From a virus, in IMG/VR virus record IMGVR_UViG_3300037508_000196, positions 1 through 30,375 of that record: a DNA stretch of 30,375 bases; one strand, 5' to 3'. The stretch's first letter is position 1. Each line of letters opens with the position of its first letter. The notes under the pieces are model-generated. The model was not told where the DNA came from. It did not search any database and saw only the letters and a list, made by a program, of their open reading frames with translations. This document shows, in pieces, positions 1,734 through 30,375 of the stretch. The position numbers were made by a program, and so were the translations under genes.

Positions 1734-2585
1734 ATGACAGAACAAGAAACAATCAATAGGATGTTAATGCAAGTACTTGAAGAAGATTGCTACATTAACC
1801 CTGAACAAGAAATAGAATATCCAATTCCTGCTATTAGTTGTGGTGAAAAAGAATACGAAACTAAAGATGGTTATAAATCTTTTCCTATTCCAATAGGTAC
1901 TTATGGTAACTTTTCATTTATACAAGCACCACCAAAGAGTAAAAAAACGTTCTTTATTTCGCTTTTAAGCGGTGTTTATATGAAAAATGAACTACAAGGT
2001 TTTGGTGGTAATTTAAGAGGTAATAGGCAAAATAAACACGTTATTCATTTTGACACCGAGCAAGGAAACTTTCACGCATCATTAGTTTTTAAAAGACCAT
2101 TACAAATGACAGGTGAAAAAGATGATAAATATCACACTTACGCATTACGCCAATTAGGGTTTAAAGAACGAGTTTCTTTTATTGAATATATACTTTACGA
2201 TAAATTAGAAGGTAACGATATTGGTTTAGTTATTATTGATGGTGTTGCTGATTTATGTGCTGATGTTAATAACATAGAACAAGCAAGTGAAGTTGTACAA
2301 CATTTAATGCGATGGTCAAAAGAATTAAATTGTCACATTGTTACGGTTATTCACTCGAATTTTGGAACAGATAAACCAACGGGACATTTAGGTTCGTTTT
2401 TGGAAAAGAAAGCAGAAACACAAATACAATTAGAACTAAACACAGTAAATAAAGAACTTGTTAAAGTAAGTTGTAAAAGAAGTAGAAACGCAAGTTTTGA
2501 AGATTTTAATTTTAAAGTAAACAATTTTGGTTTACCGCAAGTTGAAGGTGATTTATACGATATATTAAAAGATATAAAAATATGA
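1734..2585 (+). CDS. RecA-fold AAA ATPase, probable replicative helicase-like
   Basis: A 283-residue P-loop ATPase of the RepA/DnaB-related group (AAA_25 style). Walker A is APPKSKKT (65-72), with lysine in place of the usual glycine before the final KT. A VIHFDTEQ segment (103-110), Walker B GLVIIDG (164-170) and a following VTVIH strand (203-207) complete the core. Such proteins in phages unwind DNA at forks or load onto origins; no primase domain is visible. It lies between ssb and a DNA methyltransferase and overlaps the latter by four bases (ATGA). RadA/RecA-like recombination ATPase is an alternative role. Confidence 0.7.
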   Translation: MTEQETINRMLMQVLEEDCYINPEQEIEYPIPAISCGEKEYETKDGYKSFPIPIGTYGNFSFIQAPPKSKKTFFISLLSGVYMKNELQGFGGNLRGNRQNKHVIHFDTEQGNFHASLVFKRPLQMTGEKDDKYHTYALRQLGFKERVSFIEYILYDKLEGNDIGLVIIDGVADLCADVNNIEQASEVVQHLMRWSKELNCHIVTVIHSNFGTDKPTGHLGSFLEKKAETQIQLELNTVNKELVKVSCKRSRNASFEDFNFKVNNFGLPQVEGDLYDILKDIKI

Positions 2586-3247
2586 AAGTATTAAATTTAT
2601 ATGCTTGTTTAGGTGGTAACCGGTACAAGTGGGATGAAGTAGCAAAAGAAGCTAACATTGAAATTGAAGTAACTGCTGTTGAATTAGATGAAGAAGCTGC
2701 AAGATTATATCAAGAGCGTTTTCCAAACGATAAGGTAATAGTTGCCGATGCACACCAATATTTATTAGATAACTTTAAAAACTTTGATTTTGTTTGGAGT
2801 TCTCCACCCTGTCCAAGTCATAGTAAAGTAAGGATAACACAAAAGACAAGACAAAATTTTAAGTTCTTATATCCTGATTTAAAATTATATGAAGAAATTA
2901 TTTTTTTAGACAATTTTTTTAGTGGAAAATATGTAGTTGAAAACGTAACGCCTTATTACGAACCATTAGTGGCTGCACAAAAAAGAGGTCGTCATTTATA
3001 TTGGACTAACTTTACTTTACCTACAGATTTAAAAGAAAGAAAATTAGATGGTATTTTATGTTTAATGGAAAATGAAATAGATACACTTTCAAAATTTCAC
3101 GATTACGATTTTAGGAAATATAAAGGAAGTCAAAGATTAGATAAAATGGCACGTAATTTAGTAGACTATGAAGCAGGTAGAACTATTTTTGAAATAGCTT
3201 TAGGAATAGTAAATAAAAAAGAAAGCAATCAAATTGAATTATTTTAA
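2582..3247 (+). CDS. Compact DNA cytosine-C5 methyltransferase
   Basis: A 221-residue protein with cytosine-C5 methyltransferase motifs: motif I as LNLYACLGGNRYKW (about 4-17, with Cys-Leu where phage relatives usually have Gly-Ile), an acidic AdoMet-binding VELDEEAA segment, motif IV WSSPPCPSHS with the catalytic Cys in PPC, motif VI VVENV, and a QKRGRHLYWTNF segment like motif VIII. It is far shorter than typical enzymes (over 300 residues), leaving little room for a target-recognition domain. It is coupled to the upstream ATPase by ATGA. It probably marks phage DNA against host restriction. A possible nuclease partner is at 4895. Confidence 0.75.
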   Translation: MKVLNLYACLGGNRYKWDEVAKEANIEIEVTAVELDEEAARLYQERFPNDKVIVADAHQYLLDNFKNFDFVWSSPPCPSHSKVRITQKTRQNFKFLYPDLKLYEEIIFLDNFFSGKYVVENVTPYYEPLVAAQKRGRHLYWTNFTLPTDLKERKLDGILCLMENEIDTLSKFHDYDFRKYKGSQRLDKMARNLVDYEAGRTIFEIALGIVNKKESNQIELF

Positions 3248-4530: not shown

Positions 4531-4908
4531 ATGGCAAGACAAAGAAAATCAAAAGGACTTGGTGATACAATAGAAAAAATCACTGAAGCAACAGGAATTA
4601 AAACAGTAGTAGAAGCAATTTCAGAAGCTACAGGAATCAACTGCGGTTGTGGAGAACGTAAAGAATTACTAAACAAATTGTTTCCTTACAAACAAGCTGA
4701 ATGTTTAACCGATGAAGATAACGAATGGTTAACTAATTTCTTTTCGATAACTAATAATCAGTTAACACCGAAGCAACAAAACAAGGTTACTGAAATTTAC
4801 AAGAATGTATTTAATGAAAAAATACAACCTTCAAATTGTGGTTCTTGTTGGAGAGATAAAATAAACGACCTTAAAAGAGTTTACGACACGCAAAATGCAA
4901 GTAAATAA
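4531..4908 (+). CDS. Conserved phage hypothetical, cysteine-containing
   Basis: A 125-residue protein with a basic N-terminus (RQRKSK), two near-repeats (ITEATGI at 17-23 and ISEATGI at 30-36), a CGCGERK motif and a later NCGSCWRDKI motif. The two cysteine clusters could bind a metal jointly. The middle has an acidic segment and NNQLTPKQQNKV. Proteins of this general pattern recur in Bacteroidota phages and prophages, but I know no function. Its last 14 bases overlap the start of the nuclease-like gene at 4895, implying co-translation. Confidence 0.7.
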   Translation: MARQRKSKGLGDTIEKITEATGIKTVVEAISEATGINCGCGERKELLNKLFPYKQAECLTDEDNEWLTNFFSITNNQLTPKQQNKVTEIYKNVFNEKIQPSNCGSCWRDKINDLKRVYDTQNASK

Positions 4909-5554
4909 ACAGAATAGATTTGAAGTAACATTTGATAAAGCAAAATTCAGCTTATTAAACAAAGACAGGAAGATTTCTTGGTTGTTTAGGAGTTCTGAAG
5001 TTGGAAAATGTGCAAAGATATTCGATGACTATTATAATTCTGAACAAGTATTAACTCCAAAAGGTTGGTTCTTGTTTTATAAATCAGTAATGGGTGTTGA
5101 CATACTAAAAGAAGTTTCTAATAAAATAATGGAAATAACAAAATTAGATGAAGGCACCTGTTTTCAATATACAAAGTTTAGAGTACTTGGTCAAACTTGG
5201 AATGGTATGTTAAACGAAATAGATTTAATCAATGAACTAAAACAAGAATTTCCAAACATTGAATTTAGAAAAGCTGATTATAATTTAGATGAAAACTATT
5301 TTACTGATTGGGAAGCGTATAGTAATGGGAAGTTATTTTTAGGTTTACAAATTAAACCAATAACGTATCAGTATATGAATACTCAATATCAGAATCAAGC
5401 CAAGTTAAATCACGAAGCACAAAGACAAAAGTATAAAGATAAATTTAAAGTCCCGCATTTTTTAATATATTACGAAAACAATAAATTGCAAGACAAACAA
5501 AAAGTAATAGATAGAATAAACACATTATTAATAAATTTAATAGAAGTTAGATGA
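4895..5554 (+). CDS. Probable PD-(D/E)xK nuclease, MjaI-like restriction endonuclease
   Basis: A 219-residue protein resembling the MjaI restriction endonuclease family. Family-like features are a FRSSEVGK stretch (31-38), LTPKGWFLFY (53-62), FRVLGQTWNGMLNEIDLI (about 95-112) and the candidate active site TDWEA (D138) followed by LGLQIKP (Q152, K154), a D-x13-QxK version of PD-(D/E)xK, with E108 in the preceding helix. It could cut host DNA to feed replication, restrict competing phages, or pair with the C5 methyltransferase at 2582. MjaI itself cuts CTAG; specificity here is unknown. The family call is from pattern memory and moderately secure; the nuclease fold is somewhat surer. Confidence 0.5.
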   Translation: MQVNKQNRFEVTFDKAKFSLLNKDRKISWLFRSSEVGKCAKIFDDYYNSEQVLTPKGWFLFYKSVMGVDILKEVSNKIMEITKLDEGTCFQYTKFRVLGQTWNGMLNEIDLINELKQEFPNIEFRKADYNLDENYFTDWEAYSNGKLFLGLQIKPITYQYMNTQYQNQAKLNHEAQRQKYKDKFKVPHFLIYYENNKLQDKQKVIDRINTLLINLIEVR

Positions 5555-5913
5555 ACGCAATAGAAAACCCAATACAATTAGAATATTTAAAGCAAGTGAT
5601 ACTTTCACAACTGCTTTTAGAATGTAACGAAAATTTACGCTTTACAATACAATATAAGCAACAAATTAAGAATAGAATCAATAACCTAAACAAAGACTTG
5701 GAAAGTGTCGTACATAAAGAATACACAAGTATTTATAAAACAGACCCTGAAATGACTACAAACATTTTAAGTAAGATTGAAAGTTTGGTTACAAAGTTAA
5801 GTACTTCAACACTTGATGAATTAATTATGATTGATGCAATAATTGATAAGTACAACGATAACAAAGAATGGTTTAAACAATATGCTGAAGCTGAATTTTT
5901 AAAGATTGAATAG
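5551..5913 (+). CDS. Hypothetical protein, helical
   Basis: A 120-residue, Asn/Lys/Gln-rich protein with long predicted helices (QYLKQVI-like heptads around 12-45, and 65-105), suggesting coiled-coil or four-helix structure. No catalytic motif is seen. Its ATG overlaps the stop of the nuclease-like gene by four bases (ATGA), so the two are probably translated together; it could be a partner or regulator of that nuclease, but that rests on position alone. Confidence 0.65.
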   Translation: MNAIENPIQLEYLKQVILSQLLLECNENLRFTIQYKQQIKNRINNLNKDLESVVHKEYTSIYKTDPEMTTNILSKIESLVTKLSTSTLDELIMIDAIIDKYNDNKEWFKQYAEAEFLKIE

Positions 5914-5915
5914 TT

Positions 5916-6137
5916 ATGACACTAAAAGAAAAGTTACAAGAAGAAAAACTATATATAAACCCATATAGTTTTAAACTAACAAAAGAGGGTGTAGAAAATT
6001 TAGAAAAGATATTTGATGATTATGCTATTGAGTTTGCAGAGTGGTGTGAAATGAAAATGGTATTTAGTTCTTCAGTTATTCACAAACCAACTTATGATAA
6101 ATTATTATTACAATTTAAAAAAGAAAAAGGACTATGA
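5916..6137 (+). CDS. Hypothetical small protein
   Basis: A 73-residue charged protein (MTLKEKLQEEK at the start; EKIFDDYAIEFAEWCEMK in the middle), probably helical. It starts two bases after the previous stop and overlaps the DUF3310 gene by four bases. Proteins of this type with an EFAEWC-like helix are common fillers in phage early regions; function unknown. Confidence 0.65.
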   Translation: MTLKEKLQEEKLYINPYSFKLTKEGVENLEKIFDDYAIEFAEWCEMKMVFSSSVIHKPTYDKLLLQFKKEKGL

Positions 6138-6364
6138 GTAAGATAACACCAATGCACTATATGACTGATTCAAAAGTTGATGTCATAGACTTTTGTAAAA
6201 TGTATGATATGAATTTTAATCGTGGAAATATAGTAAAGTATTTAGCACGAGCCGGTAAAAAAGATAACGAACTTGATGACTTACGAAAGGCATTAAACTA
6301 CTTGATGCGGGAAATAGAACACCACGAGAAACTTCAGGAACAATGGATTGAAAACAATAAGTAG
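6134..6364 (+). CDS. DUF3310 family protein
   Basis: A 76-residue protein matching DUF3310, a small phage family sometimes annotated as nucleotide kinase-like. Typical features are an N-terminal PMHY segment, VDVIDFCKMYDMNF (17-30), and the signature GNIVKYLARAGKKDNELDDLRKALNYL (33-59). Biochemical function is not established; the family often lies in nucleotide-metabolism or early regions. The stop codon lies inside the left arm of the terminator at 6359-6385, which ends the 3279-6364 gene run. Confidence 0.8.
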   Translation: MSKITPMHYMTDSKVDVIDFCKMYDMNFNRGNIVKYLARAGKKDNELDDLRKALNYLMREIEHHEKLQEQWIENNK

Positions 6365-29703: not shown

Positions 29704-29786
29704 ACTTATTTTGTTTTTGAAAACATTTTTTGTTTTTGGTATTTATTTTTTTTTAGTTTTAAATACTTATTTTGTTTTTAAGAACA
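29704..29786 (+). repeat. Short direct repeats in T-rich gap
   Basis: ACTTATTTTGTTTTTGAAAACA at 29704-29725 recurs at 29765-29786 with two changes (AAGAACA ending). The contig's own left end begins four bases inside the second repeat unit. Confidence 0.55.
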
Positions 29787-29838
29787 AGGCAAAGTTACAA
29801 CTTTTTTTTGACATTTACAAATTAACTTATTGACTACT

Positions 29839-29864
29839 TTGTTAATAACTAATACTTATATTTG
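29839..29864 (+). promoter_or_regulatory. Promoter of right ninG-like gene
   Basis: TTG at 29839-29841 and TATATTTG at 29857-29864, identical to the promoter at 71-96, five bases before the ATG at 29870. Confidence 0.6.
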
Positions 29865-29869
29865 TATCA

Positions 29870-30256
29870 ATGAAAGTCAAACGTTCAACCTTAGTTAAGA
29901 ATTTAGATACTGTATTTTCGCAGTACATACGTTTGCGTTATGCTAAAGATGAAATAGCTGAATGTTATACTTGTGGTAAACAAGACCATTACAAAAAGCA
30001 ACAAGCAGGTCATTTCGCATCACGTAGGCATTATTCAACACGTTGGAACGAATATAACGTGCAAGTTCAATGTTATGGGTGCAATATCGGAAATCAGGGT
30101 TTGCAGTTTGAGTTTGGCAAAAGATTAAATAAAGAATTTGGTAATAATTTTGCAGAGCAGTTATTAATTGAATCTAAAAAGACAGTTAAATTATCTGATA
30201 ATGATTTGCAAGATATGATTATTTACTACAAAGATAAATTAAAAGAATTTCTATAA
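29870..30256 (+). CDS. NinG-like recombination nuclease, right allele
   Basis: A 128-residue counterpart of the protein at 102-476. The shared N-terminus (MKVKRSTLVKNLDTVFSQYI) and C-terminal DLQDMI...YYKDKLKEFL frame a diverged middle: YTCGKQDHYKKQQAGHFASRR with Ala in place of Cys before GHF, NVQVQCYGCNIGNQG, and a longer RLNKEFGNNFAEQL segment. The CxxC and QCYGCN zinc/HNH elements are kept, so activity is likely retained. Many differences are at third codon positions. It is either a second allele from the population or a paralogue. Confidence 0.75.
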   Translation: MKVKRSTLVKNLDTVFSQYIRLRYAKDEIAECYTCGKQDHYKKQQAGHFASRRHYSTRWNEYNVQVQCYGCNIGNQGLQFEFGKRLNKEFGNNFAEQLLIESKKTVKLSDNDLQDMIIYYKDKLKEFL

Positions 30257-30299
30257 ATTACATTATAATTTCTGATTGTTTTCTAATTGTTTGAAGAAG

Positions 30300-30328
30300 G
30301 AGTAGTTTAGCGGCTACTCTTTTTTTTT
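30300..30328 (+). terminator. Intrinsic terminator after right ninG-like gene
   Basis: GAGTAGT (30300-30306) pairs with GCTACTC (30313-30319) with one T-G pair, followed by nine T. It is the counterpart of 520-548 with two substitutions that leave the hairpin intact. Confidence 0.85.
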
Positions 30329-30353
30329 GTTAATGAAATGTTAATGTTTATTT

Positions 30354-30375
30354 TTGTATTAAAATTCTTTATATA
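30354..30375 (+). promoter_or_regulatory. Truncated promoter at window end
   Basis: Counterpart of 574-599, cut off after TATA of the -7 element at the end of the window. The missing part would continue into the operon at 624 if the genome is circular. Confidence 0.5.

Follow-up and report, generated by a model that had tools for sequence, protein, structure and literature searches.

The gene of interest here, an intact open reading frame of 219 amino acids with an ATG start, is located among the replication and recombination genes of a phage, and overlaps by a few bases the small conserved genes found at either side (Table 1). The window, by which we mean the whole stretch of 30,375 nucleotides analysed, has ends (1-595 and 29769-30375) that repeat each other with 92% and 85% identity and contain each a NinG-like gene, which suggests a near-complete genome of about 29.8 kb. 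The repeat is either a true duplication or the result of joining two strains in a circularly permuted genome. The host of this ca. 30-kb phage is probably a member of the Bacteroidota.

Table 1. Location of the features discussed, with the evidence for each.
Feature	Position	Strand	Evidence
Compact C5 cytosine methylase, judged to be outside the nuclease system	2582-3247	+	PF00145; distribution; homologues in nuclease-free phages
g125, conserved small protein with a GLGDTIE motif; left border of the slot	4531-4908	+	Adjoins the slot in relatives with and without the nuclease
Putative solitary MjaI-family restriction endonuclease, predicted targets CTAG and CTGG/CCAG	4895-5554	+	PF09568, PADLOC, active-site residues, AlphaFold2 model, absence of sites
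g120, conserved small protein; right border of the slot	5551-5913	+	Adjoins the slot in relatives; fused to the slot protein in L163
Genome without CTAG and CCAG/CTGG on both strands; proposed self-protection	1-30375		Counts and synonymous-codon shuffling

The protein matches the Pfam family RE_MjaI (PF09568) over residues 22-182 (E=3.8e-6), with a score (27.3 bits) above the curated cut-off of 22.7 that places it within the family by profile, and also the PADLOC Type II restriction endonuclease model PDLC03450 (E=2.5e-9). The original prediction had proposed a D-x13-QxK active site (D138, Q152 and K154) in MjaI-like surroundings, and it has stood up well, as the three residues are present with this spacing and were invariant in all the 61-62 homologues that could be read at these positions, those from plasmids among them. 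Two of the plasmid proteins, which carry an MjaI-family annotation and are 23-27% identical to the protein of the window, share the D...QxK arrangement. The MjaI-like reading is thus backed by the profile matches and the catalytic residues, together with the absence of CTAG described below, and by its sequence we consider the protein to be an MjaI-family nuclease.

The AlphaFold2 model (pLDDT 85) has a helix/strand/strand/strand/helix/strand core in which D138 directly precedes the strand 139-143 while Q152 and K154 are within the next one (146-155), an arrangement that fits a PD-(D/E)xK-like core with the active-site residues at the expected strands. A Foldseek search of the PDB gave no significant match; among the best ones, all below significance and including PD-(D/E)xK enzymes, were the Hjc Holliday junction resolvase (top), EcoT38I and cap-snatching endonucleases. 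Matches to enolase and NDUFB4 in a sequence search of the PDB were due to chance (E about 1), and those to DUF2286 and DUF4365 in Pfam were under the cut-off. Two scans of prokaryotic genome contigs gave no confirmed relative, and a search of viral contigs with a Paenibacillus-type query found nothing.

CTAG, suggested originally as a candidate site to be counted, is completely missing from the window, where a Markov model predicts 62.7 occurrences. The same happens with CCAG/CTGG (0 observed vs. 83 expected), and CCGG is found at normal levels (9 vs. 12). When synonymous codons were shuffled within genes, keeping the proteins intact, 45.5 ± 5.3 CTAG and 75.5 ± 6.4 CCAG/CTGG were expected, against the zero observed, and therefore the avoidance acts at the level of DNA. 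The window is also devoid of CATG (0/45; here and below site counts are observed/expected), GATC (0/47) and GGCC (0/6), for which it carries no matching nuclease in the slot; host restriction, past contents of the slot or competitors are candidate causes.

The absence of CTAG extends to every phage relative carrying the gene: over 60 non-redundant nuclease-bearing viral contigs CTAG was 0/1618, with zero in all 60. The accompanying motifs vary among nuclease clades. That of the window lacks CTAG (0/1108) and practically also CCAG/CTGG (2/1367), a distant clade with 35-37% identity lacks CTAG (0/203), CCAG (0/377) and CCGG (0/119), and one at 44% identity lacks CTAG (0/138) and retains CCAG. 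On the nuclease tree, which left out the 35-37% clade because its sequences were too short, the CCAG trait changed a single time, as expected if it tracks the specificity of the enzyme, with the extra motifs CCAG and CCGG following the nuclease clades. We predict for the enzyme of the window the specificity CTRG (CTAG plus CTGG/CCAG), excluding CCGG; CTAG is very probably cut and CTGG probably so, although a second, linked gene could also be the source of the CCAG absence. Among palindromes of six bases no zero specific to a class of contigs was found.

In some relatives the slot between g125 and g120 holds other genes, and its states have changed at least 32 times on the tree of the AAA gene. 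One of the alternatives is a protein of ca. 130 amino acids with an ELKCR motif and no Pfam or PADLOC family (e.g., L134:4598-4999, L123:4188-4589 and L360), whose model has low confidence (pLDDT 53), so that its likeness to the closest structure, an archaeal Hjc (Foldseek E=0.0096), is only a lead. CATG was zero in 81 of the 82 contigs with this protein in the slot (in total 4 vs. 2424 expected), and CTAG was zero in 54 and present in the other 28, in some of them at normal levels. The highly diverged members L357, L358, L360 and L365 also have zero CATG, with normal CTAG, CCAG and CCGG. We predict that the ELKCR family is a CATG-specific nuclease. The only contig of this class containing CATG (4 vs. 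20 expected) has a diverged version of the protein (L366:1399-1797), and two named phages (ct2KA10) with a 43% identical homologue had CATG 0/134 and 0/129. In another contig (L163:3386-4138) the ELKCR protein is fused in frame to g120. A further one, L014, has both slots, g125-ELKCR-g120 and g125-nuclease-g120 (298-1419 and 4872-6239), with CTAG 0/19 and CATG 0/18; it is possibly a hybrid, or else was wrongly assembled.

A third type of slot protein belongs to phrog_13596 (e.g., L153:4335-4709), and the contigs that carry it have zero GATC and zero CATG. Homologues with 37-47% identity are found in eight named phages (HTVC019P, HTVC011P, HMO-2011, C72C1, C75C1, HTVC103P, CRP-143 and KM23-C739), with hosts that are SAR11, Puniceispirillum, Roseobacter-type or unknown. 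In these eight genomes GATC was 0/959 while CATG and CTAG were present, and therefore GATC is the likely motif of phrog_13596. HTVC008M, that infects HTCC1062 and has no match to phrog_13596, had GATC 17/89 in 34 kb. Our prediction is that these "hypothetical proteins" are GATC-specific solitary nucleases.

The association between nuclease and missing word is also found outside phages. MjaI-family genes are present on pSC2 of Paenibacillus polymyxa and on a 414-kb plasmid of Brevibacillus, and in 390 and 400 kb of these two unrelated Paenibacillaceae megaplasmids CTAG was 0/542 and 0/601. GGCC and CCGG were also reduced in both, and most of the remaining tetranucleotides were close to expectation. 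CTAG is retained by plasmid relatives with no PF09568 match, with counts of 169/229 and 145/226 for the portions of them that were sampled. Along similar lines, the sampled parts of an Aneurinibacillus plasmid (NZ_CP116888.1) had GATC 0/504 and CCGG 0/165, and those of a P. thiaminolyticus plasmid (NZ_CP106993.1) CGCG 0/68; both may have other solitary restriction enzymes on board. A weak match to phrog_13596 (E=1.5e-4) was seen in the former (W04:656612-656749).

Slot content and missing word show a double dissociation: ELKCR contigs have practically no CATG and often normal CTAG, and nuclease-bearing contigs have no CTAG with CATG that is sometimes near normal (L380, L384, L211 and L362). 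Fisher tests of slot content against word, in which shared ancestry is ignored, gave p=3e-8 for CTAG, p=5e-5 for CATG and p=0.48 for GATC. Independent pairs on the AAA tree were, out of 14, on average 4.1 for the association and 0 against (median p 0.125), not significant because such contrasts are too few. The contrasts in this work were picked after the data had been seen, with the exception of the tests with named phages, which came when the metagenomic contigs had already led us to propose the links with GATC and CATG.

There are several other possible explanations. The one that survives best, improbable as we consider it, is that host restriction against CTAG, CATG and GATC drove the loss of sites and that the nuclease in the slot is incidental. 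Avoidance of the sites of host enzymes is widespread among phages (PMC6286503), a Flavobacterium phage devoid of the nuclease, stinky9-1, has CTAG 4/78, and many nuclease-free phages of the group studied here are also CTAG-free, for which reason we rejected the idea that the absence of CTAG proves by itself the presence of the nuclease. To the ELKCR contigs without CTAG mentioned above have to be added 3 of 12 with no slot nuclease at all, and therefore other forces, be they host restriction, past swaps or competitors, remove CTAG too. However, host restriction does not predict that the content of the slot tells which word is exactly zero, nor that extra motifs track nuclease subfamilies, nor the eight named GATC-free phages with phrog_13596, nor the same link between nuclease and CTAG in unrelated megaplasmids.

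ELKCR phages with a backbone shared with CTAG-only nucleases are often CTAG-free and keep CCAG (0/381 and 598/603), while ten that have the backbone of the window lack both (CTAG 0/235, CCAG 11/265). This cross-avoidance would be either the scar of a recent swap or the effect of pressure from co-circulating carriers of the nuclease, and is compatible with swapping of the slot or with competition.

Less probable still is a role of the slot protein in replication or packaging as a structure-specific nuclease of the Holliday junction resolvase type, with swaps that are functional replacements and a loss of motifs unrelated to them. The slot does sit amid replication and recombination genes, and Hjc resolvases are the best match of the ELKCR protein and the top one, short of significance, of the nuclease in the window. 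Against this, the missing word is predicted by the content of the slot, the protein of the window matches a family of restriction enzymes, and both genome ends already provide a gene for a junction endonuclease of the NinG type.

The original prediction also included a cytosine-C5 methyltransferase with a catalytic PPC some 1.6 kb upstream, and such a gene does exist (221 amino acids, PF00145 E=1.2e-8 over residues 1-93 only), on the same strand and ending 1.65 kb before the start of the nuclease. What did not hold is the suggestion that both form a dispersed restriction-modification pair. Among the contigs showing both the replication module and the slot, 7 of the 40 with the nuclease had the methylase and 33 lacked it, and it was found as well in 9 of 48 carrying a different slot nuclease. 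Close relatives vary in this respect, some of them having it between the AAA gene and g98 and others not at all. Flavobacterium phages have a 64% identical methylase, and no match to the nuclease of the window was found in them. The true partner of MjaI, M.MjaI, is an m4C and not an m5C enzyme (PMC5867850). In the two Paenibacillaceae plasmids no methylase is annotated next to the MjaI gene, and both encode C5 methylases elsewhere. By the same evidence the nuclease does not qualify as part of a Type II restriction-modification system, the mark of which is a cognate methylase guarding the same sites. Considering this distribution and chemistry, and that with neither CTAG nor CCAG/CTGG left in the window there is nothing to methylate, we rejected the pair, a C5 methylase shielding the phage from its nuclease being the least probable explanation in spite of the proximity of the genes (<1.7 kb, same strand) in the window and a few relatives.

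Homology, a conserved active site, fold topology and an absence of sites that matches the content of the slot are what we have observed, and they point to an active solitary restriction enzyme of the MjaI family, cutting CTAG and CTGG and attacking host or rival DNA, with the phage shielded by the erasure of its own sites; we give this reading a probability of about 0.8. That it cleaves DNA, with which precise specificity, when and against what target, is what we infer. The nuclease would be produced along with the replication genes and would cut unmodified host DNA at CTRG sites, fragmenting the chromosome, shutting down the host and feeding replication, with the phage exonuclease and other enzymes possibly recycling the fragments. 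Rival phages or plasmids still bearing CTRG sites would be cut too, and the phage would escape because its genome has none. The destruction of host or rival DNA originally envisaged is therefore plausible, while the C5 methylase as protector is not, since protection appears to come from loss of sites and not from methylation. The locus is a cassette slot, in which relatives have other small PD-(D/E)xK-like proteins, one tied to CATG and another to GATC.

Restriction enzymes are thought to require a methylase. Phage T4 has nucleases that degrade host DNA, its own being marked by hydroxymethylcytosine; here the host and phage DNA would also be told apart, in this case via the missing sites. The similarity to R.MjaI and the CTAG cutters of PF09568 resides in the profile, the D...QxK also seen in the MjaI-annotated plasmid homologues and the implied CTAG target. 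The phage differs in having no cognate m4C CTAG methylase and in carrying the nuclease in a swap slot, and its subfamily probably reads CTGG/CCAG in addition. Another parallel is PacI, a solitary restriction enzyme tolerated by a bacterium through the absence of sites (PMC3488263). Also in the phage contigs no partner methylase seems to be required, and the carriers have none of the CTAG sites that are the predicted target. However, PacI is a bacterial HNH enzyme with an 8-bp site, the absence of which is easy, whereas the word erased from the phage genome has 4 bp and 60-odd expected occurrences, and we propose that the phage enzyme acts against the DNA of the host or of rivals. The restriction enzymes encoded by chloroviruses are believed to break down the DNA of the host, and adjacent methylases protect the virus (PMC7019647). 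The chlorovirus enzymes are likewise site-specific endonucleases of viral origin, the cleavage by the phage one being predicted, but where chloroviruses have a methylase the phage has g125 and g120 as neighbours, and its sites are erased. The literature covered, largely open-access articles and no preprints, described no phage that combines a restriction enzyme free of a methylase with the erasure of its sites.

We are inclined, with less confidence than for the window itself, to a more general view in which "erase your own sites" weapons comprise at least three swappable, methylase-free families of small phage nucleases, directed against host and rival DNA (MjaI-like for CTAG or CTRG, ELKCR for CATG and phrog_13596 for GATC), and much of the unexplained avoidance of tetranucleotides in phages comes from nucleases borne by phages, their own, past ones or those of competitors, and not from host restriction. 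The phage appears to achieve discrimination between self and non-self by deleting a word from its own genome, and the target of an uncharacterised nuclease would be readable from sequence alone. New restriction specificities could be reached in this way, and the mechanism is possibly one of phage-phage warfare. For tetranucleotides that are avoided although no host restriction system is known, it would also provide a cause that can be tested. Motif-depleted pelagiphage genomes with no identifiable host system were reported in a marine methylome study, GANTC being depleted in about half of 33 genomes and the host restriction system not identified (PMC9516812). A nuclease against GANTC carried by the phages themselves would explain this depletion in a way open to testing.
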